Origin: Brachionus manjavacas
Taxonomy: Eukaryota > Rotifera > Eurotatoria > Ploima > Brachionidae
Direction: 5' to 3'
DNA length: 64,000 nt
Assembly (NCBI GenBank): GCA_019054805.1
Contig: JAHQIY010000016.1
Location: forward strand, 2,021,112-2,085,111
Positions 37,441 to 64,000 of the stretch are shown one piece after another (the stretch's first letter is position 1; the number at the start of each line of letters is the position of its first letter). A program made the translations under genes and the position numbers. The notes beneath the pieces are model-generated. The model was not told the origin of the DNA and made no database searches. It was given only the letters and a program-made list of their open reading frames with translations.

Positions 37441-38321
37441 TCGATTCAATAATTATTTTTTTTTAAATTGATTAATAATATTTTAAATGTATTTTTTTGT
37501 ACAATAAAGCAATAAAATTTTTTAATTTATTTAGTTTTTTGATTTAAAAAATTTTTAAATTTTTTATCTTTATAATCTTTAATAAATTAATAAAATCAAA
37601 TTTATTTGTTTGTATTTATTTTTATTTTATTTAAAATTTCAATTTAAATTAACATTGTAAAAATAATTTATATTTAATCGTGCTGTGCGTAGGTCTGTAA
37701 GCCTGTAATTTAAGTCAAGTCAGGGACTTGAATTCTTTGGCCCTTAAATTAATTAAAAGAAATATTGAATTCTTTCTTTTCTGAGAAATATTTTTTAATA
37801 AACATTTTAAATTTTAATCAGTCCTTCACTAATTATGCAATTGAAGTTTTTTAAAATAAAAGGATTTTTTTTTTAAATTTTTAATTTATTCATTTTTTAT
37901 TATATAAAATTATATTTAAAAGTTCTGATTTTTTTAATTTATATTTAAAATTAATTTAAACTTTCATTTCATGCGTTGTTGTAAATTTCTTAAGTTTTTT
38001 GAGATAAATAAAATTTTTAAAATTTTTTTTTCTTTCAATTTTTATATTTGGGAAGTGGTTTCCTAAAAAGATTTTTAAATCATTTTTTAAATATGAGTTT
38101 TTGTCGTAGAAATTCAAAATAAAAAAAATTTACATTTTAAGATTTAAAAAAAATTATTGAATAGCAATATTAGCAATTTGATTGATGTATCTCAATTTTC
38201 GACAAACTCATAATCTGATTCTCAAAAGAAGCAAGCAATCATGAACTTTGCCTACTCTGATTTGACAATAAAGAGTAATTTTAAATTTATATCTTTAATT
38301 TAATGTGACATTTCTTTAGCT

Positions 38322-40279
38322 AACAGTGATAACCAAATTGTTTCAAGAACGGCAAAGTGTAAACTTTGTTCGTACAACATTACCGATACAAGGAATAATA
38401 CATCAAACTTTATTCGGCATTTAAAATATTGCGATAAGGAAGCATATAATGAGTTAAAATCTTCAAAGGAACAAAAAAAAGCAACGTCAAACCAAGACCA
38501 TAAGAAAAACCTAACGGCAGAGATAGTCAACGACTTCATTTTTAAATATTTAATTATTGAATGTGGACTGCCTTACCGCTTAGTCGAATGCGAAGCCTTT
38601 AGATCTTTTATGTCACTGATTTGCAAGAAATGGAAACCGACATCGAGGACAAAACTATTAAAATTGCATAATAAAGCGATCGACCTTGTGAATTATAATT
38701 TGAAATTGTTATTATCTAAAATAGGGTTAGGGGTTAGGGGTTAGGGTTTTTTAGATGTTTGGACAGATCGACGACTAAGATCATTTCTCGGGATAACGAT
38801 GCATTTTTTAGACGAAAATTTTAATTTCAAAATTTATGTTCTTCGCTACAAAAATATTTCAACAACGACGGGGAGGGGTATTAAACGAGAAATAGATATG
38901 ATTATTGAAGAATTCGCTATTCGTGAGAAATTAGTTCGAATAGTTACAGATAATGGTTCGAATATGGTTAAATGGGTACGCTATTGCATCTTGTCGGTGA
39001 AGATGAGTTTGACCTTTCTGAAAGGGAAATTGAAGAAAGTGAAACTGATACTGAAGAAGAAGTTACAAGCTCTGAGGATGAAATTGATACAAATTTTAAT
39101 ATCAACGAGATTGATTTATCACAGGACTCAGGATTGAAGCATATGAGATGTTTTGCCCACTCTCTACAACTTGTTGTTAAAAAAAGCTTTGCAAAAATCA
39201 ACAACGTTAAAAGAATTATTAAAAAGTGCACTAAAATTTCAGCAAAATATAGGCCAAAGAAAGATTTTGCTTCGTATTTAGCTGAAAAAAAATATAATTC
39301 AATTCCAAAACCAATAAAAGTACCCTGGAATAGTGAGCTTACGGGCTATTTAAAAATAAAATTAATCGATCTAAATGAAGCTCTAAATATGATCAATAAC
39401 CAAGGATTAAATTTAAGTCAAAATGAACATTCAAGACCAGCAGAAATAATTAATATCTTAGAACCATTTGAATTTGTTACAAATGAAATTCAGGGAGATC
39501 AGTACTCAACTCTAAGTCTAGTAGTAACAAATTTGTTACAATTAATACAACATTTTGACGATTTCAAACTGGTAAACAATAGTCTGAAAGCGTTTATCAG
39601 TAAATTGAGAAACGAAATTAACACACGATTCAGTGTAATATTAGATTTAAAGAACAATAGCATAGTCGACTATTCATGGTATATTTCTTCTTTCTTGGAC
39701 CCTTTATTTAAAAACGAATGGTTAGCTATATCAAGTTTGAATTCAGATGAAAAGCATTTGTTTATTAAACGCTTAGAAGATCAATTATTTCAAGAATGGA
39801 AAATAATAGCTGCTAGAGAAGGCAATGAAAATAATTTAGAAAATCAAATTCCGTGTACCTCGAATGATGCAACAAAAAAAATCCGGCCATTGAGTCCTAT
39901 TAGTACAGATTCAGAAGCAAGCCTCCTAAAATCACCAACAAAACGACGGAAGTTTTTTAGTTTTTTAAATAGAAGCACTCCACAAGTTGAAGAGAACGAC
40001 GATAAAACTAAATTCAAGCATGAATTGGAACAATACATCAATATCGATTATAACGAAGATGATGGCTTCACGAGATTTTGGATGAAGAATAAATTAAAGC
40101 TACCGGCTCTATCGAAACTTGCACAAAAATTTGTATCAATACCTGCTTCATCAGGACCAGTTGAAAGACTTTTTTCTAAGTCTGGCTACATCAACAGACC
40201 ACATAGGTCAAGATTAACTGCCAAAAATTTGGAAGTAACAACTTTATTGGTATCAAATATGGATTTATTAAATGAATAG
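38322..40279 (+). pseudogene. hAT transposase (BED finger, DDE catalytic region, hATC domain), frame broken
   Basis: An N-terminal BED-type zinc finger (CKLCSYN...NFIRHLKYC) is followed by the hAT core: FLDVWTD with the first catalytic Asp, FLGITMHF, IVTDNGSNM with the second Asp, CFAHSLQLVV, then the C-terminal dimerisation domain (W...LKLPALSKLAQKFVSIPASSGPVERLFSKSG). A long frame runs 38972-40279 (435 codons). Two breaks precede it: a telomere-like GGGGTTA repeat insertion at about 38724-38748 that introduces a stop just before the first Asp, and a one-base shift near 38968. The acidic, Ser/Glu-rich segment after TDNGSN is a typical spacer. It is not active as it stands unless the frame shift is a sequence error. 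Confidence 0.85.
38724..38748. repeat. Telomere-like GGGGTTA tandem repeat inside the transposase gene
   Basis: Three to four tandem G-rich units (GGGTTA/GGGGTTA) replace the few codons expected between SKI and FLDVWTD in hAT proteins. They create a stop and shift the frame. Confidence 0.85.
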
Positions 40280-47914: not shown

Positions 47915-47919
47915 GGTTG

Positions 47920-47967
47920 CCTAGATTTTTCGCTGATATATGAATATCAAGAAAAAAAAAATCTAGG
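47920..47967. repeat. Helentron terminal hairpin
   Basis: CCTAGATTTTT pairs with AAAAATCTAGG, enclosing an inner dyad (TGATAT/ATATCA). It is present identically next to the terminus in the copy at 63040-63087 and partly in the copy at 60560. A palindrome near the 3' end is the termination signal expected in Helitron-class elements. Confidence 0.8.
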
Positions 47968-47978
47968 TATTACGTTTG

Positions 47979-48028
47979 TCGTGTCCGTCCGTCCGTCCGT
48001 CCGTCCGTCCGTCCGTCCGTCCGTCCGT
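47979..48028. repeat. (CCGT)n microsatellite in the Helentron 3' region
   Basis: Eleven or so CCGT units in this copy. The copies at about 60610 and 63104 have fewer, so the tract length varies between element copies. Confidence 0.9.
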
Positions 48029-48266
48029 CTGTGGACACATCTAACCCTAGTTTTTAGATGTTAACCCTAGTTTTAAAAATGACAAAAAATATGTCGATCG
48101 ATAGCATTGAATACATAAAAGGCGCGAAAAATCTAGGCCATCTAATTTTTTAAAAATTAAACTTTAAATCGATCAATCACTAAAACAAAAATATTAATCA
48201 AAAAGATTAAAGTAATAAAAAATTTATTGACAACAAAAGTATGAACTAAAAAAGAAAAAAAGAGAA

Positions 48267-49160
48267 TTAAAATGTGATCTCGGTGAAAATAGCCTGATGA
48301 TCACTGAACCATGTTGAATATGGCTGTGATTTAAATTGACCAAAAGAATGTGACTTGCTCGTTAGACACCAATCCAATTGAGACATATCCTTGAAAGTTA
48401 AACATTTGCTAAACACGGGTGTCATGTTCAAATTGTCTCTTAGCGTATCAAGATATTTAGAATTGTTTTCTCTATTAAAGTCAATATTGAAATCACCAAA
48501 GATTACCAAAGAGTCTTGGCTGTGCAAATTTAAATTCAAAAAGGCAATCAACTCTTGAATAAACTTGTCATTGTCCATCTTTGGATGCTTGTAAAGATTT
48601 AAAAAATAAACAACTGTTGAATTTCCCTTTCTAAATTTGAATAAACTCAATTCAACACATTTCGATTGATTAATGCCCGAATACTCAAACCCTGTGGATG
48701 CATTGTGTGCAACTAATTCAAAATTGTCAACAAGTGATTTTTCCTTGCGTATTAAACATATTTGTCCATTTGAACAATTTAAATTGATTCCACTTGAATA
48801 ATAAACAAGGTGATAATTGTCAAATAATAATTTTGCTTCATTTTGTCTAAAATTTTTTCTATTGTGACATTCACTTAGAAAAATAACATCAGCTTGCTTA
48901 TATCCATAATCATATTTGACATTTTCTTTGTTTGAATTAAACGATTGAATATTTTGAAACATTATTGTCAAATCACTTGTTCTCTTCAACTCAAAACCAT
49001 AGTCCAAAAAAGAGTAATGGTTTCTCATGTTAGCATTCGATCTTAGTCTATTCATTTTCAATGCGAACCGGATCATTTTGTTCAAACAATTGCAATTCTT
49101 TTTCTCGTTGTTCTTTGGACAATCGTTGAACACGATGCACTCTCAATCGAAAGACTGCCA
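48267..49160 (-). CDS. Helentron C-terminal AP-like endonuclease domain (EEP family)
   Basis: A 289-codon frame with the exonuclease-endonuclease-phosphatase landmarks in order: MFQNIQSF (Asn), ADVIFLSECH (catalytic Glu), LNLYKHP, VIFGDFNIDF (GDFN, near 48490), LDWCLTS and WFSDHQAIF (terminal SDH). It is complete and all catalytic residues are seen. It would nick DNA and in Helentrons is fused to the C-terminus of the helicase; here a one-base shift near 49150 separates the two frames. Partial copies are present at 60840-61236 and 63372-64000. Confidence 0.88.
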
Positions 49161-50636
49161 TACAAATACAAACCAGTCAGCTTAGTTGCTCTACTCAATG
49201 CTACATACAACAACGATCGTTTCAAACTGTCTCCAATGAACACAGCAACACATGTATACGATTGTCCCTGTGATTTGTGTATGGTCATTGATTCACATTC
49301 AATCAAAGTAAATTGTCTCCTATCCACGCGATAATTGCCACCCGCTTTTGGTCTTTTAATTGTCTGTTGTTCGTAAACCAACGCAGTCAAATGTGGATCT
49401 ATTGTTTCTTTTAGAATCAATGCATCATCTCTCATCCATTTAAGTTGATCGTTTTCATTTCGTGACAAATGACCAACATCTTTATCTGCAAATTCCAAGT
49501 ACACTCGTTTAACCAATGGCTTTACGTCTGTTTTTCTTTGTAAAAACAATATGTTTCAAACACCTAACTGCACCATTCACTAGACCATCTTCTGTTCGCA
49601 CATTTGTTGTCATCATGTATTTGCAGTTGACTTTTAAATCTCAACAATGTAGGCATTCCACATGTTTTATTCATGTCCATTTCATTTCTAAGACTTGCCA
49701 CTAGGTTTTTTGCTTTATTTGAATTTTTCTCTTTGCCTTGAGCCAAATCAATTGCTCGATTTTCAATTAAATCACCAGGCATTGATCTCAACTTGTAATC
49801 GTTGTATTCATTCACTCCTTTATTTGAATGAATAACACAAATAGCTTCTCTTGGTATTTGATCAATGAGAACAATGCGTGAATTAAACATTCTCACTTGT
49901 TCTTCACTCAAACCTATAACACCTTTGTTTCCAAGTGTATTAAGAGCTTCAGCAAACACTGCATCGTCACGTTGTCTCATTATTTCCTTGAGTTCAACAA
50001 ATTCAAACTTGTGCCACAACAAATCACCTGCCAAAATCGAATAGCCACTCTCTCCTCTAGATCTTTCAAATATCCAACTGTCTTGCACTGGACATATTTG
50101 ATTTAAATCACCAACAACAACAATAGATATATTGCCAAATGGCTTTGAATTGTTCATTATTTGCATTAAACGCTTATTTAATTTCGAAAATAAATTGCTT
50201 CCGACCATCGATATTTCATCAATTATTAATAATTTTACTTTTTAAATAGCTTTCGCACTTTTGTCAATAAATTTTCTGACAATCTGTCCATATTGTTTGT
50301 ATGAATTGAAAAATGGAACAATGAGTGCAAAGTTGATCCTTTAATGTTAAAAGCTGCTTTGCCAGTAAATGCTGACAAGAGAACAGTAATAGAAGTTGGA
50401 TCATCGATATTGTCACTATTTATTCTTATAAACGTTTGATATAACGACTTGATTAGATGAGACTTACCAGTGCCCGCACCACCACTAACAAAATGATAAA
50501 ATGGCTCTGTTGATCGTACACAATCGATAAAATTTGACAAATACTTGTGTTGAATACGATTAAGAGACTTCATCAATGTTGCATATTCATCATTTGTTGT
50601 TCGCTTTGGCAAAATTATCAGAATCACAATCGGCAT
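49082..50636 (-). pseudogene. Helentron PIF1-family helicase domain, frame-shifted
   Basis: Three overlapping frames make one helicase: Walker A GGAGTGKSHLIK (about 50460-50483), the AFTGKAAFNI.G.TLHSLF segment, Walker B LLIIDEISMVG (about 50215), GDLNQICPVQ, LKEIMRQRDD, the DGLVNGAV motif (about 49570-49590), MTIHKSQGQSY and YVALSRAT near the end. These are the SF1B PIF1 signatures of Helitron RepHel. It would unwind DNA during rolling-circle transposition. One-base shifts occur near 50240, 49637 and 49555, two of them in A runs. So the copy is either degenerate or carries indel errors. Confidence 0.88.
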
Positions 50637-50639
50637 TAA

Positions 50640-53031
50640 TCATACTTTGCAAATTACTAATTTCATCTTGAATAACAGCATGATATCCAAATTCATCTTC
50701 AATTTCTTCATTTCTCGCTTCATTTGCATTCGTCACAAGGTTTTCATTTGCTTCATTCACTCGTTCCACATAATCTTCGACCATACGTTCATAATGCTCT
50801 TGTATTTCTGTTTCCAAATCATTTATAGCTTTATCAAACTTTTTCTGCCACAACAGATTCAAAGCGTGCACGATTATTAGCTATAATTGTCTTGTTGAGC
50901 TCAAATATTTCAAATGTATCTTTTACTTCAACTTCTTTTTTTTCATTTCTCCACGGGTGAAACAACATTATTTCAACACGATAGTAATTTTCCGGATCTT
51001 TTATTCGATTATATCTTTTGTAACGCAATATTTTACACTTGTTTTTTTTTTTTTACATATCCATCGTTATTTTTCAATTTAATCAATTTTGAATTACTTG
51101 CTATTTCAACAGTGTCAGAAACATCATCGTCTTCACCAGTGTTCGTTTCAACTCTTGCCAATTGTTCATTTTCAAAATAATAATTGTTGTCATCTTCGTC
51201 CAAATTTTCGTCTTCTTCTTCTTGAAATCGTCCAACTCGGAGTCAAATCGTTTGGATCTTTTGCTCTTTCTCTTGAAAAATAGTCAAAGTAAGTGGCAAA
51301 TTCGGCCAAACACATTCTTTCCATTTCAATAGGTCTATTAACATAATGCTGAAGTATGCCAGCTCGAAATATGTTTTTGGATTCAGGATTCATTATTTCC
51401 AAATAGCGATCCTCCTTAAGTATAACATTTCTTTCTTTGAAGGAAATGTATTTACGTAAATGGTTTCACGAGATGTTCGCGACACTGGCATACTCAACAA
51501 TGTATATGTACACTCTTGAGCTGATATTTCACAACAATTGTTAAACTTGTTGGCTACCTTTAACAAACGTTGTTTAACACTCAAATTTCCACGCACCACT
51601 TCCTCAACAGTATTTTTAAGTAGTCGTGACATTGAAGCATTTGATTTGAGCATGTACGCTGACACATAAGCTGCAGCACCATACGGATCAGTAATAAATT
51701 GAATGTCCATATTTGCTCTGTGACGAACATAAATGGGTTTATTGTATGGATTAACCATTATGTCATTAGATGATCTTTTTAAAAAGACTGTAGATCTTTT
51801 AATAGAACGTGAAAGTGCCCTCAAATAATCAATTTCATTTAATCCTATCATTTCTAAAAATTGTTCAAAATTAATTGAATATGATGAGTTACTTTTGAAT
51901 TTTGTATTTATTTCATTCAATTTCTCTCTTATCAATAGAAAAATTTTCGTAAGCCTTGTGAAAATCGTTATCATCTTTTTTCAAAGGCTCTAATATTGTT
52001 GTTTTGTCCAGAATGGGCCATGGAAATCCATACTTGCACAAAATGTTACCATGATCATCGGTAATTTTACAGTTACTTTTGTGCACATGAACTTGATACT
52101 TCAAAGGTACCTCTTGCAAAATACAACTACGATTCTCATAATCGTCTTCCTCAATCATATTGTTTGCTGGACGCTTTGACGTTATGTATTTATCAATAAA
52201 TTCGGCACAATTTTTGACCAATTCACTTTTGTCTTGCAAATCTTCATCATATTTTAGAGCATCTATATTCCATGTTATCATATGAATGTGAGGACTTCCA
52301 CGATTTTGAAATTCCACACGCCAAAAGTAATCAAACACAGGATTTTCTTTAAAGGGTCCATTCAAATTGAAAATGTATTTGAGCAATTCGCCCATTCTAT
52401 TTTCAAAATATCTTGCCACAGTGATTGGATCACGACTTACCATTTCAATACGCTTGTCTCTTGTTATGTTAGTCAATTCATCATCTGAAAGATATTTATT
52501 GTCGAGCGTTTTCGACAATACTTGAATCAATTCATTCCAATCTATTTCTGCCGGACTCAATGTAATAAAAAACGACGGACAGCCCAATTGACGAATCATT
52601 GCATTTATTTCCATTTTTTTCCACTCCCAATACTGTGGACTTGATCTTATTGTACGCAAAAACATTTGTGCTTCATTTCGAACTATTAAATCATTTATTT
52701 TTGTTTATTTAGAGCATCACGTGCGGTCAGCGATTCAATTTCTTGGGTTTTTCTCAAGCATGTGTCTATGGCTGCATTTAGTTTTTTTGCTCACCAATTT
52801 CTTGTAGGAATAAAACAATTTATTTATGTCATTGGCACAACGTCTGTCAAATCGACGAAATTCCGACTTGCATCTCATTCCGTATTTGATTTGTAATTTT
52901 GGTTGAAACTTTTCACCACCATATATTTTAATAAATGTCAACTCTTCAGCATCTTTATCTGAAAGAATTGATCTTGGCTGAATACCTTCGCCTGGCGCTA
53001 TTGTCTTTACCAAATCGTTGTTGTCAAACAA
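50640..53031 (-). pseudogene. Helentron Rep (HUH, two-tyrosine) nuclease region, frame-shifted
   Basis: The frames at 52735-53031, 51913-52665, 51393-51974, 51190-51402, 50834-51028 and 50590-50871 together form the Rep and the Rep-helicase linker. Landmarks: MIRQLGCPSFFITLSPAEIDW (motif 1), RGSPHIHMITW with the HUH histidines at about 52282-52290 (motif 2), and AAAYVSAYMLK with the two catalytic tyrosines at about 51654-51668 (motif 3). Rep cleaves and joins single-stranded DNA in rolling-circle transposition. The active-site residues are all retained but single-base shifts break the frame at several points (for example near 51960 and 52700). Confidence 0.85.
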
Positions 53032-53090
53032 AAGAGTAGGTTGTGCATTTTGAAATTGTTTAACATAATCAGCGTCTTCATTTCTTTTTT

Positions 53091-53921
53091 CTAACCCTTG
53101 TAAATTTGGATAAAGTCTTTTAAATTACCCGAAGCCAATAATCTATCTTCATTATTTACAATGAAATCTTCAGTCAAATCCACATTGTCAAAATCTTTAT
53201 GTTTCTCGAACCATTCCGTTGATAATTTTATGTTATTCTCTTTGAAAAGGGGCCTATTAAGCAAATATCTAATTGCTTTTAAAATTAAATATGGTCGTAT
53301 TGAATCGAACATATAAGGTTTTGTATAGTCCATTCTCCTTTTTAATACCAACTGAATTGTTTCGGATTGTTCAAATGAACGCGGAAGAATTTCCAATGTT
53401 TTTTCTGTATCAATTGGTACATTTACTACATTACCAGATATTTTTTGTTGATGATCCCAATTAACCAATTCTTTGATACGCATAAATGGAAGTCTTGGCG
53501 AACACAAGCGTTCTTCAACTTCATTTAAATGTTTTAATTCGTCTGGAACAACTGGGAATTGTAATCCATTTGACAATGCGAGATTTGGTATTTTGTTTTC
53601 TCTCACATATTTAGAACAAGTAACACAAATCCAATTAAAACCACATTCCGATTTTATATCTACATTAAATATTTGATTGAACAAACTGTTATTTCTACTA
53701 AGTGTGAACTTATTTACTGTTCTCTTAAAAAGACCACCACAACAAACACAAGCAAACGACGGACCATTTTGAATTCCTTCTTCATAAACATCTATCAAAA
53801 ATTTAATATTTGATCTTTGATTTCGTTTACTAATTGAATTTCTAGCTTGTTCTTCAATCCTAAAAGTTTCATTTGATCTTCTATTTCTGTGTTGTTCGGT
53901 ATTTGACAATTGTTCTTGCAT
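53091..53921 (-). CDS. Helitron N-terminal zinc-binding region
   Basis: This frame has the conserved segment that precedes Rep in many Helitrons: CVCCGGLFKR, a second Cys pair (CVTCSKYVRENKIPNLALSNGLQFP), then PDELKHLNEVEERLCSPRLPFMRI. The Cys pattern suggests a zinc module for DNA or protein binding. It follows the repeat linker without a clear start of its own, so I read it as an internal part of the polyprotein. A one-base shift near 53090 separates it from the next frame. Confidence 0.82.
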   Translation of the reverse strand: MQEQLSNTEQHRNRRSNETFRIEEQARNSISKRNQRSNIKFLIDVYEEGIQNGPSFACVCCGGLFKRTVNKFTLSRNNSLFNQIFNVDIKSECGFNWICVTCSKYVRENKIPNLALSNGLQFPVVPDELKHLNEVEERLCSPRLPFMRIKELVNWDHQQKISGNVVNVPIDTEKTLEILPRSFEQSETIQLVLKRRMDYTKPYMFDSIRPYLILKAIRYLLNRPLFKENNIKLSTEWFEKHKDFDNVDLTEDFIVNNEDRLLASGNLKDFIQIYKG

Positions 53922-54789
53922 TCTGTATTCAATATTTTTTCTTCTTAATGCATGCTCGATTGTGTTTGTTATTTGTTCATCGTTTCGATATATGGAATTA
54001 CTTCTTCTTAATTGATGTTCTTCAGTGTTTCTTAGCTGTTCTTCTTCTCTGTATTGTGGATCGAGTCTTCTTAGTTGATGTTCTTCAGTGTTTCTTAGAT
54101 GTTCTCTTCTCTGTATTGTGGATCGAGTCTTCTTAGTTGATGTTCTTCAGTGTTTCTTAGCTGTTCTTCTTCTCTGTATTGTGGATCGAGTCTTCTTAGT
54201 TGATGTTCTTCAGTGTTTCTTAGCTGTTCTTCTTCTCTGTATTGTGGATCTGTTCTTCTCATTTGATGTTCTTGAGTGTTTTGATTTCTCAAAATTTCTA
54301 TATGCTTGATCTTGTCTTCGTAATCTATGCTCTTGACTATTTCTGATTTGTTCATTGATCCTATATTCGACATCGTTAATTCTTTTATTTTTTTAAGAAA
54401 AGTGTTTTTTAATTGTTCGTATTGTTTTTCGTACAAATCTTCACGTTTAACTTGTTTACTTATTTTTTGTATTGATTTTTCGACATTTCTATAATTTTCA
54501 TCTTCTCTTTTCTTTCTCATCCATTCTCTCTTGTATTCTTTTCGTTTATCATGCTGTGATATATTTTCTGGAGTTTGACTAATTTCTTGCAATCCAAACT
54601 CCCTATCAGATTCTATGATTTTCATTTCAACACTTGTTTTTTGGATAGAAAATGACATTTTTTCATCCTCTAATGATTGAAAACTCATATGAGAATCATG
54701 TCTTTGTTTTCTATTTGCTTGCGCACTAGCTGAATTATCCGGAATAACCGGCCTTACAACATTGACACGTCGAATTTGATTTTGGGATC
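53922..54789 (-). CDS. Polyprotein linker with basic coiled coil and 21-residue tandem repeats
   Basis: It connects the USP domain to the Rep zinc region. The first half is a Lys/Arg/Glu-rich, coiled-coil-like segment. The second half contains at least four copies of a 63-bp repeat encoding EEQLRNTEEHQLRRLDPQYRE-type units (about 54000-54290), with more diverged copies down to about 53900. A one-base deletion relative to the other units near 54100 shifts the frame. Confidence 0.78.
54000..54290 (-). repeat. 63-bp coding tandem repeat in the Helentron polyprotein
   Basis: Four near-identical 63-bp units (21 codons), with weaker units either side. The high identity between units indicates recent expansion or homogenisation. 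Confidence 0.85.
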
Positions 54790-56286
54790 TTCTATTCAAT
54801 TTGTAAAATAAAAGGTAACATTGATTTGTACTCATATCAATTGTTTGTTTAAATTGATTTAGGCTCGGAAAAACTTTAATATTTTCGTCGTCAAAATAAT
54901 GCCAATTATTAGATTTTGAACGAACCAACGCTTTGAAAAATAATAATTAATTAAGTTTTTAAAATATTTAAATTAAAAAATAGGTCAAAATAAAAGATCC
55001 AATTAAAAGAATTTTATTTAATTTGACTAATTATAAAATATATGAATTAAAATTAATAAAGCTAACCCTTTACTTCTATTTAGCCGAAATCCCTAAACAG
55101 ACCCCATTAAAGCTCAAGACGTCTGGCGACGTCTCTCGCTTAGCCAAACTATGGTTTATTTTAGGCTTGATCTAATTAAACAGGAGTTATTTTTTTTTTA
55201 AATTGTTTTAATTGGAATATTTTCTTTTACTGATATTGTTAAAAGCTTACTTACAAGTATAATGTCCCGAGTTTGATGCGTCTCCAAGATGAAAACAAAT
55301 TGATGTTAGCTCATAAATTCTGTCATTTAAATTTGAAACTTTATATTTGCTCAAGTTTAATTCTTCTTGAAAATCAATAGAATTTGACAATTTTCTAACA
55401 GTCCCAAAAATTATCTATCTTTTTTTTAAATAGAAATTTGATAAAAATTTGGAAAAAAATTTGTATAAAATTAAATTACTCTAAATCTTTTGAGCATTAT
55501 AATCAAATTGTCCTTCATTGCATTTAATTTTGAACTTGAAGTAAAGGTTTGATTTGAATTGCACTGATTGCAAAACGTATCCTCAATCAATTCATCACGA
55601 ATAAATATTTCCAAACAGTCGTTTATTGATTTACAATTCGAATCCATTGGCAATTGTAAGCAAAGATTTGTAGAAGTGATTTGTTTTTGATGCATTGAAT
55701 TTTTGCCACATTTCATTTTCTGCATTGTTTCGAATATAAAGCTTTGACTCATTAGATTATGAGTAAACTTGAAATTTTCAAAGACATCTTCTAAACGATC
55801 GGTTGATCTAAGTCCTCGTTTTCCAATCTCAATCTCAATTACACATTCATCTATGTAACACATGAATTGTATGAGAAATTCATGAGCATCGTGCTGATTA
55901 AATTGTGTAAAAGTCTCACTTAATTTCGACTCGTACAATTGATCGAAAAAATTTTGATACAAATTTTTAAATTCTTTTTGTTTCAGTCTTTTTGTTAAAT
56001 TCAAACCTTCGTACACAAAATTAACATATGTATCAACCAAATTGTACTCGTCTTGATCATAGGCAAATTGATGTTGGTATTTGTGTTCAATAACATTTTT
56101 TAATACCATGTCGAATGAATTAATGCATTGAACTATTGAACCGACAAAACAAGTGTTAATTAAATTTGGAATTCCTTTGCCAACAAAGGAAGAATTTCGA
56201 TCGTAGTCAAAGTTTGTCAATAGTAAATTGTTTCTAAACAATTGATTGATCGAATTAATTTTGCTTCTTGTTAATTGTCTGCTCAT
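54790..56286 (-). CDS. USP-family deubiquitinase domain at the head of the Helentron polyprotein
   Basis: Three exons: 56286-55480, 55414-55255 and 54930 onward, with introns of 65 and 324 bp in matching phases. The Cys box GIPNLINTCFVGSIVQ puts the nucleophile at residue 46 (about 56151). QHDAHEFLIQF, a zinc-finger-like FCNQCNSN and LIIMLKRFR follow. Exon 2 ends in the His box GDASNSGHYT, and exon 3 starts LVRSKSNNWHYFDD and reaches CYLLFYK, the canonical USP end. Cys, His and Asp of the triad are therefore all present. USPs remove ubiquitin from proteins. Exon 3 runs on without a stop into the repeat linker, so the domain appears fused to the transposase polyprotein. OTU-type proteases are known in some Helentrons; a USP in this position I do not know of. 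Confidence 0.85.
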
Positions 56287-56430
56287 TTTCGTTGGTTAAA
56301 ATAATTTTTCAATAGGATTTTTTTGATTTCTAAATATCTAAAATGAAAAAAATTTATTTAAAAATTAAAATATAAAAAATTAAAACAAAACTAAAAGAAA
56401 AAAGACATATTCAAGGGCTAAGGTTTAATA

Positions 56431-58365
56431 TTAGGCATATTCAACATTGCCTTTTGAATAATTGCCATATTTTACTTTGCTAAAATAAAAGTAAATCAAA
56501 TAAATGGTAATAGTTACAAGAAATAAAATTCCAAAAAATATTAAAATTGTTGAAAAAAATTTCTTATCAGATCATAAATATTTCCAATTTTGTTTGCAAA
56601 CCATTGCACAATTTTTCCCATTGAATTGGTTTCGATCAAATTTCCATTTACGTCCAATTTTGAAAGCTCTTTTGGCGAGTCCATTACAATAAATGGCGAA
56701 TTAAAAAATAACGATTCATCTTCCAAAATATGTATGTTCTCAATAAAGTCCGTTCCGTTCAACAAGTACGCGTGATGATCGTATAAATTTTTTAAATCGC
56801 CTGTTTTCAATTTAAAATCAGTAGAATGGTGAGTTAAATTTGAAATGCGAATAGTATTCTGTGACAATCTTTCCACTAGAACTGCTTTTTTATTTGACAT
56901 TCTTAACATTATTGATTGATCACATTCGACAGTTTTTTTGAATATTGGGTTATTATGTTATTTGGCCGTATGTAACCTGGTCTGAAGTTTTTTGAATTTT
57001 GAATACGATATTCAATTGGCAAATGTTTGGTGCATTCTTTTGAATTAACTTTATTTTTGATTCGAATTTTTGTCGATTTTCGAACAAAGTGGTATAAATA
57101 CTTGGCCATTGTTTATGTAAAAAGGAAATTTTTATTATCTTTTAAAACAAAATAAAAAATTCAAATTATTAAATAAAAAAGTAATTTAATATTTATTACC
57201 TATATGCGTTAGATTCAAGAACGTATCTTCTAGATGAAGATTTTGTTTAATTGAATTGATAAAAATGCTACAATGCAATTGTTTAATCATTTCCAACATA
57301 ACAAATGTTTTATAGTCTTGTTCAGAAACTAAAAGCCTATTTTTGTCTTTCTCTGTAAAATGACTAAATGAGTACTTTGATGTGGGAAGGTTTTCAAGCT
57401 TATCCTTAATGACTTGGCTATTAGCGTGTAAGATTTGATACATCCCATCATGCGCCTGGTGGAAAACCCCAGGGTAGAAAGAAAGGTAGAGTCCCTCTGA
57501 TGTTTTCCAAAAATCAAATCCACAATCTTTAACATAACCAGTCACCATAAAAAGATAATTTACTTTTGACGAATAAAGAACTAATCTTTTAATCCCATTA
57601 TTCACTTTATCCATTTTAATCATATCATCAAAATGTAATAATCTTTCATATTGACAATTGTGAATATCCTTTCTATCCCATATTATTGTACTTTGAGGCA
57701 TTTTACAAAATTCATCTTCGGCATAGCATGGTTCAATTGAGTTGTGAAAAATATTTTGATTTTTATTTTTGAGCGAATACAATCTTTTCATTGAAATGAC
57801 ATTCGTAAAAAGTTTTTTCAATTGTTCCAAAATAAAATGGATATTTTTCGACAACATCTTGTGAAAACGAGCAAGTGTTATTGTTAGTACATAGCATATT
57901 GAATTTTTTATTCGAAAAGCCACACTGTTTTTCCTTAAACATTTGAACACAATCATGTTTAGATAAATAAATTTTTTCTAAATCATTTTGAACATATTTA
58001 TTGAAGAAAATATCTCTACTAAATTTATATTTTCGCACTAACATTCTACATTCGATTCCTTTTGTCTCTAAAATAAAATTATGCTTGGAAAAAACGTATC
58101 CATGTGAACCTATGGAATGAATGTCACCTTCTAACCCACCTGAATTCTGCTCTTCTTTACCTTTAAAAGCTTTTATTGAAAACTCATGCACAGATTTACT
58201 AAAAGACTCCACAAAACAATCATTCTCTAAATTTAGCATATTCAAATGGTTGTTTACGATACACATCTTGTAATCGCCCAAGATTTGTTCATAAAGTTGA
58301 CTTTTGTTTTTTACAACAATTATTGCCATTAAAATCAAAACTTGGGTAAAATAAAGTCTAACCAT
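56431..58365 (-). pseudogene. Candidate envelope-like membrane glycoprotein gene, frame-broken
   Basis: It lies directly upstream of the USP in coding order. The first frame (58365-57763) starts with a hydrophobic signal-peptide-like segment and is Cys-rich. A second frame (about 57800-57186) continues with more Cys and a W...C.YERL motif followed by a Gly/Phe/Tyr-rich stretch. Two shorter frames (57109-56909, 56909-56541) follow. Near the end is an amphipathic stem, and in a neighbouring frame at about 56475-56550 a single ~24-residue hydrophobic anchor with a short polar tail, ending at 56431. N-terminal signal, Cys-rich ectodomain, amphipathic stem and single C-terminal anchor is the architecture of viral type I fusion glycoproteins. 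The family is not identified; a class III-like fold is only a guess. One-base shifts lie near 57790, 56935 and 56550, with a stop or possible intron at 57120-57190. Confidence 0.5.
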
Positions 58366-58739
58366 TTTGAAGAAAATTTAAAATGAAACTTTCTCTTAGG
58401 AAAAATTCAGCCTTTTAAATTGGATTTTCTAATATATATTATATAATATTATTTTTACTTATAAAAAAACTATTTCAAATAACCAAAATTATGGAATGGT
58501 TATTAATGGAATTGTATGGTAAAGCAAATACAATCATTATTTAAAAAATTCGTCAACTTAATTTTTTTTTATCGATTTTTTTCCTAGCAACTAAAATTAA
58601 TTTTTAGAAATTTTTATTAATTATTTTGCTGAAATATTTTAAGTTAAAAATTGGGTTTTTTTTTCAAATTAAATAAAGAAAAAACAATTTGAAAAGCAAT
58701 TTGTGTGCTTCATAGAATTTCATTTATAAATTTCGAAAA
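58366..58739. other. Helentron 5' flanking segment
   Basis: AT-rich leader upstream of the envelope-like ORF. Positions about 58390-58490 recur at 61237-61320, which ties this stretch to the transposon. The remainder to 58739 is single-copy here and leads into the satellite. It probably contains the promoter for the first gene. Confidence 0.6.
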
Positions 58740-60559
58740 AAATGGGTCGCAAAAATAAAAAAGATTTTAGCAAAAATATTCTCATAAATTAATTCTAAAA
58801 TCTTAATCCAAAAAAATAATTAATTGTTTGTGTTAAACAACTTATTGGTACAGTGTTCCGGTTAGGGAATTGCTCTAATTGATAGAAAAAAAATTAGTGA
58901 GAACGGGGTCCGGGGCGGAGCCCTGGTTTAGGGTTCCGTATGCAGTAAGCTAGAGAACCATTAGTAAAAATTACTATTATTTTTGAATGTTAAATAATCT
59001 AAAAAATTATTAGTAATTATTTTAGCATAAATATTCTCATAAATAAATTCTTAAATCTTAATCCAAAAAAATAATTAATTGTTTGCGTTAAACCACTTAT
59101 TGGTACAGGGTTCCGGTTAGGGAATTGCTCTAATTGATAGAAAAAAAATTAGTGAGAACGGGGTCCGGGGCGGAGCACTGGTTTAGGGTTCCGGGTATGC
59201 AGTAAGCTAGAGAACCATTAGTAAAAATTACTATTATTTTTGAATGTTAAATAATCTAAAAATTATTAGTAATTATTTTAGCATAAATATTCTCATAAAT
59301 AAATTCTTAAATCTTAATCCAAAAAAATAATTAATTGTTTGCGTTAAACCACTTATTGGTACAGGGTTCCGGTTAGGGAATTGCTCTAATTGATAGAAAA
59401 AAATTAGTGAGAACGGGGTCCGGGGCGGAGCCCTGGTTTAGGGTTCCGGGTATGCAGTAAGCTAGAGAACCATTAGTAAAAATTACTATTATTTTTGAAT
59501 GTTAAATAATCTAAAAAATTATTAGTAATTATTTTAGCATAAATATTCTCATAAATAAATTCTTAAATCTTAATCCAAAAAAATAATTAATTGTTTGCGT
59601 TAAACCACTTATTGGTACAGGGTTCCGGTTAGGGAATTGCTCTAATTGATAGAAAAAAAAATTAGTGAGAACGGGGTCCGGGGCGGAGCCCTGGTTTAGG
59701 GTTCCGGGTATGCAGTAAGCTAGAGAACCATTAGTAAAAATTACTATTATTTTTGAATGTTAAATAATCTAAAAAATTATTAGTAATTATTTTAGCATAA
59801 ATATTCTCATAAATAAATTCTTAAATCTTAATCCAAAAAAATAATTAATTGTTTGCGTTAAACCACTTATTGGTACAGGGTTCCGGTTAGGGAATTGCTC
59901 TAATTGATAGAAAAAAAAATTAGTGAGAACGGGGTCCGGGGCGGAGCACTGGTTTAGGGTTCCGGGTATGCAGTAAGCTAGAGAACCATTAGTAAAAATT
60001 ACTATTATTTTTGAATGTTAAATAATCTAAAAATTATTAGTAATTATTTTAGCATAAATATTCTCATAAATAAATTCTTAAATCTTAATCCAAAAAAATA
60101 ATTAATTGTTTGCGTTAAACCACTTATTGGTACAGGGTTCCGGGTAGGGAATTGCTCTAATTGATAGAAAAAATTAGTGAGAACGGGGTCCGGGGCGGAG
60201 CCCTGGTTTAGGGTTCCGGGTATGCAGTAAGCTAGAGAACCATTATTAAAAATTACTATTATTTTTGAATGTTAAATAATCTAAAAATTATTAGTAATTA
60301 TTTTAGCATAAATATTCTCATAAATAAATTCTTAAATCTTAATCCAAAAATAATTAATTGTTTGCGTTAAACCACTTATTGGTACAGGGTTCCGGTTAGG
60401 GAATTGCTCTAATTGATAGAAAAAAATTAGTGAGAACGGGGTCCGGGGCGGAGCCCTGGTTTAGGGTTCCGGGTATGCAGTAAGCTAGAGAACCATTAGT
60501 AAAAATTACTATTATTTTTGAATGTTAAATAATCTAAAAAATTATTAGTAATTATTTTA
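58740..60559. repeat. ~256-bp satellite array, about seven units
   Basis: Tandem head-to-tail units of 252-258 bp measured from the recurring GGTTCCGGTTAGGGAATTGC. Each unit has an AT-rich part and a GC-rich core (GAACGGGGTCCGGGGCGGAGCC, then GGTTTAGGGTTCCGGG). The first unit is slightly diverged and the next six are nearly identical. The GC core can form a short stem (GGGTCCG with CGGAGCCC, one bulged base). No coding potential. The array ends where the second Helentron copy begins. Confidence 0.92.
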
Positions 60560-61330
60560 GCTGATATATGAATATCAAGAAAAAAAATCTAGGTATTACG
60601 TTTGTCGTTTGTCCGTCCGTCCGTCCGTCCGTCTGTGGACACATTTAACCCTAGTTTTTAGATAATAACCCTAGTTTTAAAAATGACAAAAAATATGTCG
60701 ATCGATAGCATTGAATACATAAAAGGCGCGAAAAATCTAGGCAATCTAATTTTTCATAAACAACCTTAAAATCGATCTAATCACTAGAAACAAAAATAAT
60801 TAATCAAAACGATTAAAGTAATAAAAACTTTATTGACAACAAAAGTATGAACTAAAAAAGAAAAAAGAGAATTAAAATGTGATCTCGGTGAAAATAGCCT
60901 GATGATCACTGAACCATGTTGAATATGGCTGTGATTTAAATTGACCAAAAGAATGTGACTTGCTCGTTAGACACCAGTCCTATTGGTACAGGGTTCCTTG
61001 AAAGTTAGGGAATTGCTCTAAACACGGGTGTCATGTTCAAATTGTCTCTTAGCGTATCAAGATATTTAGAATTGTTTTCTCTATTAAAGTCAATATTGAA
61101 ATCACCAAAGATTACCAAAGAGTCTTGGCTGTGCAAATTTAAATTCAAAAAGGCAATCAACTCTTGAATAAACTTGTCATTGTCCATCTTTGGATGCTTG
61201 TATAGATTTAAAAAATTAACAACTGTTGAATTTAGGAACGGTTCAGCCTTTTAAAGTGGTTTTTCTAATATATATTATATAATTTTATTTTTACTTTTAA
61301 AAAAATATTTCAAATAACCAAAATTGTTTG
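60560..61330 (-). mobile_element. Internally deleted Helentron copy
   Basis: It starts inside the terminal hairpin (CTGATATATGAATATC) directly after satellite sequence and carries the (CCGT)n tract, the 3' non-coding region and the C-terminal third of the endonuclease (to about 61236). It then jumps to sequence matching 58390-58490 upstream of the envelope-like gene, before re-entering satellite. About 9.7 kb of the full element is missing at a junction with short shared sequence (TTAGGAA-like). A block at 60972-61020 is a mosaic of endonuclease and satellite sequence. Confidence 0.85.
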
Positions 61331-63034
61331 CGTTAAATGACTTATTGGTACAAAACGGTTATTGATAGGGTTACCAGGATGGTATGCAAAAGTTGTAGAA
61401 CCACGGGTAAAAATTACTATTATTTTTGAATGTTAAATAATCTAAAAATTATTAGTAATTATTTTAGCATAAATATTCTCATAAATAAATTTTTAAATCT
61501 TTAATCCAAAAAAATAATTAATTGTTTGCGTTAAACCACTTAATATTGGTACAGTGTTCGGGTTATGGATTTGCTATAATTGATAGAAAAAAAAAATTAG
61601 TGAGAACGGGGTCCGGGGCGGAGCCCTGGTTTAGGGGTTCCGGGAAAGCGCAGTAAGCTAGGAGAACCATTAGTAAAAATTACTAGCTATTTTTGAATGT
61701 TAAATAATCTAAAAAATTATTAGTAATTATTTTAGCATAAAATATTCTCACAAATTAAATTCTTCAATCTCAATCTGCTATTCAATTGTTTGCGTTAAAC
61801 CACTTATTGGTACAGGGTTCCGGTTAGGGAATTGCTCTAATTGATAGAAAAAAAAAATTAAAAGAGAACGGGGTCCGGGGCGGAGCCCTGGTTTAGGGTT
61901 CCGGGTATGCAGTAAGCTAGAGAACCATTAGTAAAAATTACTATTATTTTTGAATGTTAAATAATCTAAAAAATTATTAGTAATTATTTTAGCATAAATA
62001 TTCTCATAAATAAATTCTTAAATCTTAATCCAAAAAAATAATTAATTGTTTGCGTTAAACCACTTATTGGTACAGTGTTCCGGTTAGGGTAATGCTCTAA
62101 TTGATAGAAAAAAAAATTAGTGAGAACGGGGTCCGGTGATTCTGGTTTAGGGTTCCGGGTATGCAGTAAGCTTAGAGAACCATTAGTAAAAATTAATATT
62201 ATTTTTGAATGTTAAATAATCTAAAAAAATTATTAGTAATTATTTTAGCATAAATATTCTCATAAATAAATTCTTAAATCTTAATCCAAAAAAATAAATT
62301 AATACTTTAAACAAATCATTTATTGGTACAAGGGTTCCGGTTAGGGAATTGCTCTAATTCGATAGAAAAAAAAAAAATTAGTGAGAACGGGGTCCGGGGC
62401 GGAGCCCTGGTTTAGGGTTCCGGGTACGCAGTAAGCTAGAGAACCACAGTAAAAAATTACTATTATCTCTTGAATGTTAAATAATCTAAAAAATTATTAG
62501 TAATTATTTTAGCATAAATATTCTCATAAATAAATTCTCAAACTTTAATCCAAAAAAATAATTAATTGTTTGCGTTAAACCACTTATTGGTACAGGGTTC
62601 CGGTTAGGGGAATTGCTCTAATTGATAGAAAAAAAAATTAGTGAGAACGGGGTCCTCGTGGGGCGGAGCCCTGGTTTAGGGTTCCGGGCATGCAGTAAGC
62701 TAGAGAACCATTAGTAAAAATTTTCGTCATTATTTTTGAATCGTTAAATAATCTAAAAAATTATTAGTAATTATGCCAGCACAATTATTCCCAGCTAAAT
62801 TCTTTAAATTCCAACCTTTCTGCACACACCAAAACAATGTCCAAAAATAATTGTTTCAGCGTTAAACCACTTATTGGTATACAGGGTTCCGGTTAGGGAA
62901 TTGCTCTAATTGATAGAAAAAAAAATTAGTGAGAACGGGGTCCGGGGCGGAGCCCTGGGTTTAGGGTTCCGGGTATGCAGTAAGCTAGAGAACCATTAGT
63001 AAAAATTACTATTATTTTTGAATGTTAAATAATG
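61331..63034. repeat. Second ~256-bp satellite array, degraded units
   Basis: About six further units of the same satellite with many scattered indels and substitutions, for example extra bases in the GC core near 62650 and a rewritten AT part near 62775-62850. The contrast with the nearly perfect units of the first array is strong. It ends in mid-unit at the third Helentron copy. Confidence 0.88.
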
Positions 63035-64000
63035 GGTTGCCTAGATTTTTCGCTGATATATGAATATCAAGAAAAAAAAAATCTAGGTATTACGTTTGTC
63101 GTGTCCGTCCGTCCGTCCGTCCGTCCGTCCGTCTGTGGACACATTTAACCCTAGTTTTTAGATAATAACCCTAGTTTTAAAAATGACAAAAAATATGTCG
63201 ATCGATAGCATTGAATACATAAAAGGCGCGAAAAATCTAGGCAATCTAATTTTTTAAAAATTAAACTTTAAATCGATCAATCACTAAAACAAAAATATTA
63301 ATCAAAAAGATTAAAGTAATAAAAAATTTATTGACAACAAAAGTTGAACTAAATAAGAAAAAAAAAGAGAATTAAAATGTGATCTCGGTGAAAATAGCCT
63401 GATGATCACTGAACCATGTTGAATATGGCTGTGATTTAAATTGACCAAAAGAATGTGACTTGCTCGTTAGACACCAATCCAATTGAGAAATATCCTTGAA
63501 AGTTAAACATTTGCTAAACACGGGTGTCATGTTCAAATTGTCTCTTAGCGTATCAAGATATTTAGAATTGTTTTCTCTATTAAAGTCAATATTGAAATCA
63601 CCAAAGATTACCAAAGAGTCTTGGCTGTGCAAATTTAAATTCAAAAAGGCAATCAACTCTTGAATAAACTTGTCATTGTCCATCTTTGGATGCTTGTAAA
63701 GATTTAAAAAATAAACAACTGTTGAATTTCCCTTTTTAAATTTGAATAAACTCAATTCAACACATTTCGATTGATTAATGCCCGAATACTCAAACCCTGT
63801 GGATGCATTGTGTGCAACTAATTCAAAATTGTCAACAAGTGATTTTTCCTTGCGTATTAAACATATTTGTCCATTTGAACAATTTAAATTGATTCCACTT
63901 GAATAATAAACAAGGTGATAATTGTCAAATAATAATTTTGCTTCATTTTGTCTAAAATTTTTTCTATTGTGACATTCACTTAGAAAAATAACATCAGCTT
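63035..64000 (-). mobile_element. Third Helentron copy, 3' end, running off the window
   Basis: Nearly identical to 47915-48890: terminal GGTTGCCTAG, hairpin, (CCGT)n (shorter), 3' non-coding region and endonuclease. The endonuclease frame is open from 63755 down to 63372 (GDFNIDF, LDWCLTS and SDHQAIF retained). A stop or one-base difference interrupts it upstream relative to the first copy. The rest of the element lies outside the window. Confidence 0.9.

Follow-up and report, generated by a model that had tools for sequence, protein, structure and literature searches.

In the final 64 kb of contig C16 of the rotifer Brachionus manjavacas (the window, which ends where the contig itself stops, at window position 64000; AT-rich genome of 114 Mb), a rolling-circle transposon of the Helentron type lies together with a USP deubiquitinase sequence and a gene for a cysteine-rich, envelope-like glycoprotein. 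The question raised by this locus is whether a glycoprotein of this kind is a gene of the transposon itself and, if so, from where it was acquired and in what setting the element resides. We consider it probable that the window contains a member of a Helentron family that is located mainly at telomeric repeats, and that this family acquired an envelope glycoprotein of retroelement or virus type as one of its own genes. An original prediction, made from the sequence of the window, had already joined the glycoprotein to the Helentron; the telomeric setting, the shared ancestry with the envelope proteins (Envs) of Ty3/gypsy elements, and the fusion of the USP with Rep are absent from it.

The limits of the element were read from an alignment of the window against 20 fetched stretches, and a copy census was compiled from 30 stretches. 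The blocks recurring among the aligned stretches start at window position 47915 and finish inside a satellite array with units of 256–258 bp (58764–60561, minus strand; 7.0 copies according to Tandem Repeats Finder, TRF). Among copies, the left end was constant and the right end variable, the junctions showing that copies stop at differing points of the array. Because this array is part of the element, forming its 5′ part, the element spans 47915 to about 60554 and not 58490, where its right limit had been predicted, and the glycoprotein gene lies well inside it. All of the parts named in the prediction are indeed on one strand, the minus strand, in the order Cys-rich glycoprotein (58377–56541), USP (56295 to about 54803), and Rep–helicase–endonuclease (54146–48267). 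The comparison of ends and the census indicated that this first copy (47915–60554, minus strand; 3′ end at 47915, 5′ end within the satellite near 60554) has the full extent but is decayed, with frame breaks in the Rep–helicase (RepHel) region and in both glycoprotein exons.

Complete family-1 copies were present in 8 of the 30 stretches, seven on contig C52 (one with an internal duplication) and one on C28, which gives nine copies when the window copy is included. In each of the nine, DNA of the USP, of the two glycoprotein exons, and of the 5′ region is present. In a second family, the RepHel of which shows about 73–78% nucleotide identity to that of family 1, the most complete copy, on C52, carries the glycoprotein; the C18 copy retains exon 2 as well as the end of exon 1, and the C1 copy breaks off within the N-terminal region of Rep. 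Family 1 is represented on C1 by incomplete or rearranged stretches, one of which still has the USP and both glycoprotein exons. Internal-deletion derivatives, which keep the 3′ part of the endonuclease (EN) and the 5′ non-coding part, were found in 13 stretches, and a fourteenth was cut by the end of its stretch. These short derivatives correspond to window positions 47915–48624 fused to 58396 onward, with the ends retained and the genes lost (the glycoprotein gene too) except for the EN end; comparison of repeats and alignments, together with the census, thus placed a retained 5′ non-coding region at 58396–58763 (minus strand). One such non-autonomous derivative follows the first copy in the window (60555–63033, minus strand; sequences like 47927–48624 and like 58396 onward, plus satellite; repeat families D12–D20 and alignments), and beyond it the 3′ start of a third copy is interrupted by the contig end (63034–64000, minus strand; alignments). 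One C52 copy is internally deleted and retains part of glycoprotein exon 1.

Among the nine family-1 copies and the best family-2 copy, no full-length copy ended between the USP and the glycoprotein gene, and the DNA of the latter is included in all of them, as expected if it belongs to the element. An element stopping before the glycoprotein was ruled out by the census, as was the identity of the glycoprotein as a host gene. The notion that an ordinary host secreted membrane protein lies beside a Helentron by chance can draw on the signal-like start and the single anchor, which are also typical of host proteins, but the gene occupies the same place in the nine complete family-1 copies and in family 2, and its relatives are retroelement Envs; we give this explanation practically no weight. 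The original prediction would have been undone by kinship to host secreted proteins, and the relatives found were instead Env domains that belong to gypsy elements in this genome.

Two exons of the glycoprotein gene were recognized. Exon 1 (57186–58377, minus strand; PF00974, E 0.0095, below the cut-off) encodes a signal-like N-terminus and a Cys-rich ectodomain with 13 cysteines; it is frame-broken in the window and open elsewhere, namely in nine family-1 copies (396 codons) and one family-2 copy (a 405-codon frame). Exon 2 (56541–57150, minus strand; frames, alignment, and hydropathy), which encodes the membrane-proximal part and the C-terminal anchor, is broken in the window, and one family-2 copy has it in an open frame that includes the anchor (locus L026 on C18; 240 aa, 19-residue hydropathy 3.13). 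In family 1, L017 has the anchor (hydropathy 2.68) without the start, and L013 has the start without the anchor. The hydropathy at residue 1 of exon 1 was 1.78 in family 1 and 1.09 in family 2. A signal peptide, a Cys-rich ectodomain, and a single C-terminal anchor are therefore present as judged by hydropathy only; in the window, the anchor is not readable in the frame of exon 2.

When family-2 exon 1 was searched against the genome translated in six frames, 68 matches were obtained, which were Helentron copies and distant sequences, the latter mostly 20–34% identical, and the best non-Helentron match had an E value of 3.2e-13. The six Env relatives fetched first (L029–L034) stand behind gypsy integrase sequence, as read by eye; L034, the only one tested with Pfam, had rve (9.2e-6) and Chromo (3.2e-15) in one open frame with the Env. 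The Helentron glycoprotein is 19–25% identical to the gypsy Envs, the exon-2 parts align too, and in a six-row alignment 11 of the 20 invariant columns are cysteine. At the level of sequence, we regard the kinship of the glycoprotein to gypsy Env as firm. The rhabdovirus fusion domain PF00974 matched 9 of 13 aligned members of this Env family at E ≤ 0.1 (best 1.5e-5). When the whole genome was searched with it, 56 places were found (best E 5.4e-4), 21 of them above the cut-off, and none of 14 unspecified control genomes had a match; 11 of the 56 places are Helentron copies, all below the cut-off, and 8 of the other 45 were fetched. The cut-off was exceeded in gypsy Env relatives, and in the Env family the match starts from the second position of the domain. 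The kinship of this Env family to rhabdovirus G thus appears likely.

A tree was built from 8 of the 13 rows of alignment A2, five short or near-duplicate rows being dropped. The two Helentron glycoproteins grouped together (100/99) on a long branch, apart from the gypsy Envs, and the pair is about as distant from the other gypsy Envs as the gypsy Env C1:6434 is. Because the tree joins both Helentron proteins apart from the gypsy Envs, a single acquisition before the family split would be the simplest reading; the tree program warned that long branches meet, so that capture could have run in either direction. Viral contigs contained no match to the glycoprotein, a gypsy Env, or RepHel, and a search of genome contigs with RepHel gave none in a collection that is prokaryotic, so that this absence means little. 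A rotifer spliced-leader pattern was also searched for, with 0 hits.

Selection on the element genes was estimated from nonsynonymous and synonymous substitution rates (dN and dS; NG86) between the families, with dS near saturation, so that the ratios are rough. Glycoprotein exon 1 is 54.5% identical between families with a dN/dS of 0.26, and exon 2 is 39.6% identical with a dN/dS of 0.45, the latter being an unreliable value that lends the reading less help, because its family-1 copy, L013, has the anchor end out of frame. For RepHel the ratio was 0.14, and for USP exon 1 dN was 0.34 with dS saturated. Codon position 3 was the most variable in glycoprotein exons 1 and 2, RepHel, and USP exon 1. 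As judged from these coding sequences, purifying selection is shown between the families, and the glycoprotein gene would have been kept protein-coding for a large part of the period after their split.

These values bear on the explanation that readthrough captured a gypsy env, which the element has since carried as passive cargo, functionless and now decaying. Helitrons often capture genes according to the accessible text of PMC6431247 (the papers cited here are used within the limits of such partial text), the genome is rich in gypsy Env genes belonging to the same family as the glycoprotein, and exon 2 is broken in all listed family-1 copies. Against this, the signal-like start, Cys pattern, and anchor form a complete gene in two families with proteins 40–55% identical, the dN/dS is 0.26–0.45 with position 3 the most variable, and the 396-codon exon 1 is open in nine family-1 copies beside the 405-codon frame of family 2, so we regard passive cargo as unlikely. 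Another explanation is interference, in which the Env encoded by the element would act against gypsy elements or rhabdovirus-like viruses by blocking receptors or spoiling their particles. Some Env genes are known to serve as restriction factors, a title on this subject being cited in PMC5408684, and the same-genome relatives of the glycoprotein are Envs of gypsy elements; an identity of only 19–25% to those Envs, however, speaks against recent mimicry, and interference seems to us improbable.

We also analyzed the setting of the element across the genome. The exact 3′ end occurs 167 times, 32 times directly after TTAGGG, and the reversed control gave 0; with a shorter 3′-end pattern, 34 ends followed TTAGGG, and the reversed control again gave 0. 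The triplet GGG precedes 164 of the 167 exact 3′ ends and could be either element sequence or a target remnant. The sequence ahead of the constant 3′ end is often TTAGGG repeats or truncated satellite plus G residues. In the junction TTAGGG|TTGCC, target and element have the TT in common, which leaves more than one possible position for the cut relative to the T/T insertion of Helentrons. The C52 array reaches position 119512, beyond which degenerate TTAGGG repeats fill the contig as far as its end at 120400, and truncated satellite runs straight into TTAGGG repeats on C52, C1, C8, and C31, at four different positions of the unit. Among 100 listed 3′ ends, 97 were ≤ 70 kb from a contig end, a zone that covers at most 7.5% of the genome, 95 of these 97 near-end copies had the 3′ end on the inner side, and orientation was uniform at eight of nine contig ends, C19 being mixed; these orientation figures rest on 100 of the 167 3′ ends, and copies in one array are not independent.

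It might be argued that the telomeric pattern is an effect of assembly, since repeat arrays break assemblies and would thus come to lie at contig ends. The window contig stops inside the third copy, there is no TTAGGGTTAGGG in the window, and Helentron satellite makes up the contig ends fetched from C28, C14, C18, and C27, all of which this explanation would accommodate. It does not readily account for the exact junctions of TTAGGG with the 3′ end (32 of 167 versus 0 in the reversed control), the TTAGGG repeats beyond the C52 array, the one-way orientation at eight of nine contig ends, or the satellite–TTAGGG junctions at four satellite positions, and we consider it very unlikely.

Several further observations concern the junctions with telomeric repeats. 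Helentron 3′ ends or satellite ends abut degenerate TTAGGG repeats at L045 (C52:120001-120400), L020, L064–L066, L071, L072, and L078, and in the arrays at these loci the 5′ end is mostly toward the contig end. At C19:6262-45445, Helentron 3′ ends with TTAGGG form a large palindrome near the contig start, two per direction. A different repeat starting TATCTGACACAAAGGTTTGG stands directly after TTAGGG at L075 (C31:561121-561300), L082 (C15:92001-92160), and L068 (C14:41301-41480), and is perhaps another telomere-joined element. Diverged Helentron-like 3′ ends, which begin with TTGCCTAGATT and then differ, were found after TTAGGG or TTAAGGG at L081 (C17:1562381-1562520) and L067 (C14:15861-16060), the one on C17 lying inside the contig.

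The Helentron backbone of the original prediction was borne out by a Pfam scan that covered ten frames of the window element and by the 3′ hairpin. The HUH Rep domain (51393–52704, minus strand; PF14214 Helitron_like_N, 1.8e-26) contains YVSAY at 51645–51668 and VEFQNRGSPHIH at 52282–52317; the latter has the serine between G and P of the Helentron-type motif (ExQxRGSPHxH), which is described as a mark of Helentrons in the available part of PMC4067079. Upstream in the protein, the Rep N-terminal region (53091–54146, minus strand) contains DUF6570 (PF20209, 1.4e-18) and takes in part of a coding tandem repeat with a 63-bp (21-residue) unit (TRF, 54003–54281). The PIF1-type helicase (49085–50639, minus strand; PF05970, 2.9e-16; PF13538, 3.3e-9) lies in several broken frames, with GGAGTGKS at 50460–50483, and the AP-like EN forms the C-terminus of RepHel (48267–49142, minus strand; PF03372 Exo_endo_phos, 3.9e-7; motifs GDFNID and SDHQA). 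A PIF1 helicase fused to Rep and a C-terminal AP endonuclease are thus found here as in Helentrons. The palindrome expected near a Helentron 3′ end is represented by a hairpin (47920–47967, minus strand) 5 nt from that of the element: the fold of minus-strand positions 47915–47975 has an energy of −9.3 kcal/mol (z −4.36), matched by none of 200 shuffles. An inverted 16-nt copy of the 3′ end sits about 210 nt inside that end, and no fixed 5′ end was found for comparison. In family 2 (L026), a single 2143-aa frame contains Helitron_like_N (9.8e-26), PIF1 (2.8e-33), and the start of EN (E 0.22). The reverse transcriptase and integrase domains that would be expected of a Ty3/gypsy element were absent from the ten frames, the Env-like gene alone being related to such elements, and because no reverse transcriptase is encoded in these frames, the likeness to the telomere-specific retroelements of the HeT-A and SART/TRAS types is one of arrangement only.

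The 21-residue tandem repeat in the N-terminal part of Rep is present in both families (window 54003–54281; 2143-aa frame of L026), and its sequence differs between them. A third, distant Helentron (L043, C11:46501-52800) has a helicase and an EN 45–49% identical to those of family 2; it is rearranged and adjoins a reverse transcriptase with RNase H.

The USP was predicted to precede Rep with a complete Cys/His/Asp triad. All three boxes were located, but the USP does not form a gene of its own ahead of Rep. USP exon 1 (55471–56295, minus strand; PF00443 UCH, 1.1e-9, above the cut-off) has the catalytic Cys box NTCF at 56146–56157; the His box GHYTC (55253–55267, minus strand; located by motif) overlaps a donor-like GTAAGT; and the Asp box WHYFDDE (54884–54904) and CYLLFY (54803–54820) lie in a frame (54095–54946, minus strand) that is continuous with the Rep N-terminus, as it is in family 2. 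The class is supported by the UCH matches (PF00443, 1.1e-9 and 2.7e-13) and by a PDB sequence match to USP15 (E 8e-4), and exon 1 is 53% identical between families. Since the Asp box and the YLLFY strand share an open frame with the Rep N-terminus in both families, we infer a single USP–Rep–helicase–EN protein, with introns within the USP. The USP would then be translated as the N-terminus of this protein and, on the model proposed for the VTD domain in the accessible text of PMC9741609, would probably shield the transposition complex from ubiquitin-dependent removal or deubiquitinate host factors. A deubiquitinase within a Helentron has precedents, namely the OTU and VTD domains described in that text.

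The following points weigh against a telomeric Helentron family with an acquired envelope gene. None of the examined copies is open in every gene, the EN end of family 2 is in another frame in both copies read, and neither a USP nor a glycoprotein was seen in the 6.3 kb of the C11 Helentron, a rearranged locus. None of the listed family-1 copies of exon 2 has an open frame that includes both its start and the anchor, and it is doubtful both that the glycoprotein functions in family 1 today and that this family still makes it. The PF00974 scores of the Helentron glycoprotein were 16.2–20.1 bits (17.1 in the window, 18.6–20.1 for the copies matched in the whole-genome search) versus a cut-off of 22, and family-2 exon 1 had no match. 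Sequence searches of the PDB gave no useful relative (no match for the glycoprotein, E 1.9 for a full gypsy Env, and E 0.15 for the alignment), and a single-sequence model of the glycoprotein had no meaningful fold (predicted local distance difference test score, pLDDT, 38). No capsid domain was present in the ten frames scanned with Pfam. As for the setting, 135 of the 167 3′ ends have no complete TTAGGG directly ahead, the left junction of the window copy is not telomeric (...CTTGACAAAGG), three listed ends lie inside C1, a cluster on C1 is 1.8 Mb away from the start of that contig, C19 has two copies in reverse orientation, and some TTAGGG tracts inside contigs have no Helentron 3′ ends.

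For the telomeric Helentron with its acquired envelope gene, the following mechanism can be proposed. Rep would cut and the 3′ end of the element would be joined to telomeric DNA, the junction TTAGGG|TTGCC being consistent with the preference of Helentrons for TT. The outward-facing 5′ end would become the new chromosome end, erode, and be recapped by TTAGGG, and copies would therefore stack. The least-supported step is a present or past role of the glycoprotein as a class III-like membrane fusogen, helping element DNA to move between cells, possibly from soma to germ line, by vesicles or gypsy particles. Because the ten frames contain no capsid domain, any transfer would need vesicles, cell contact, or the particles of another element. 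In its full form, this would be a semi-infectious rolling-circle transposon, present or past, whose own class III-type fusogen passes circular DNA, whose 3′ end docks on TTAGGG, and whose stacks form the chromosome end; we regard this combination as rather unlikely, if conceivable.

Elsewhere in the window, a remnant of a hAT-type transposase lies at 38304–40279 on the plus strand (Dimer_Tnp_hAT, 6.6e-11, in frame 38972–40276).

A virus-type entry glycoprotein kept across the divergence of two families would offer a testable answer to the frequent crossing of species by Helitrons, and an env gene family would be common to retroelements and a DNA transposon. In a literature search that did not reach most subscription journals, and within the accessible text of the papers found, we found no published envelope-type glycoprotein or USP in a Helitron and no published Helentron joined to TTAGGG. 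The same partial texts (PMC4067079, PMC5408684, PMC6431247, PMC7492417, PMC9741609, PMC12051294) record OTU, VTD, and RPA genes and satellite-like repeats in Helentrons, and among them is a report of Helitrons enriched near the chromosome ends of a fungus gnat.

Compared with known systems, the element resembles the Helentrons and HINE/DINE-1 elements, as described in the available text of PMC4067079 and PMC7492417, in its RepHel with a C-terminal AP endonuclease, RGSPHxH Rep motif, 3′ palindrome, non-autonomous derivatives, and internal satellite-like repeats. It differs from those described there in having a USP rather than OTU or VTD, an Env-like gene, many copies joined to TTAGGG, and a 5′ satellite with variable ends. 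Like the VTD/OTU Helentrons (PMC9741609, in part), it has a deubiquitinase in the transposase gene with the catalytic residues kept, whereas here the deubiquitinase belongs to the USP class, lies on the N-terminal side of Rep, and is interrupted by inferred introns. The same-genome Ty3/gypsy Envs (L029–L034) share with the glycoprotein a homologous ectodomain, common cysteines, and a C-terminal anchor, but they stand behind an integrase and a chromodomain, whereas the Helentron glycoprotein has a gene of its own, apparently spliced, in a DNA transposon. With rhabdovirus G (class III), the Env family has PF00974 in common, the difference being that the Helentron copies are below the cut-off. 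Envs of negative-strand RNA virus type in gypsy-like elements are described, in the text available, for the mononegavirus-like Env of planarian Burro (PMC6431247) and for the paramyxovirus-type Env of bdelloid TelKA (PMC5408684); these are retroelements with other Env types, and no Helitron is involved.

A parallel in arrangement is offered by the telomere-dwelling retroelements HeT-A/TART, SART/TRAS, and Athena. Retroelements of this kind form head-to-tail stacks at telomeres, with the constant 3′ end proximal and the variable 5′ end distal. Athena is named in the accessible part of PMC5408684. The stacking of the Helentron is like that of the HeT-A-type retroelements, but it has a rolling-circle Rep and no reverse transcriptase in the ten frames, and a rolling-circle element arranged at telomeres as these retroelements are would add a new mode of chromosome-end construction.

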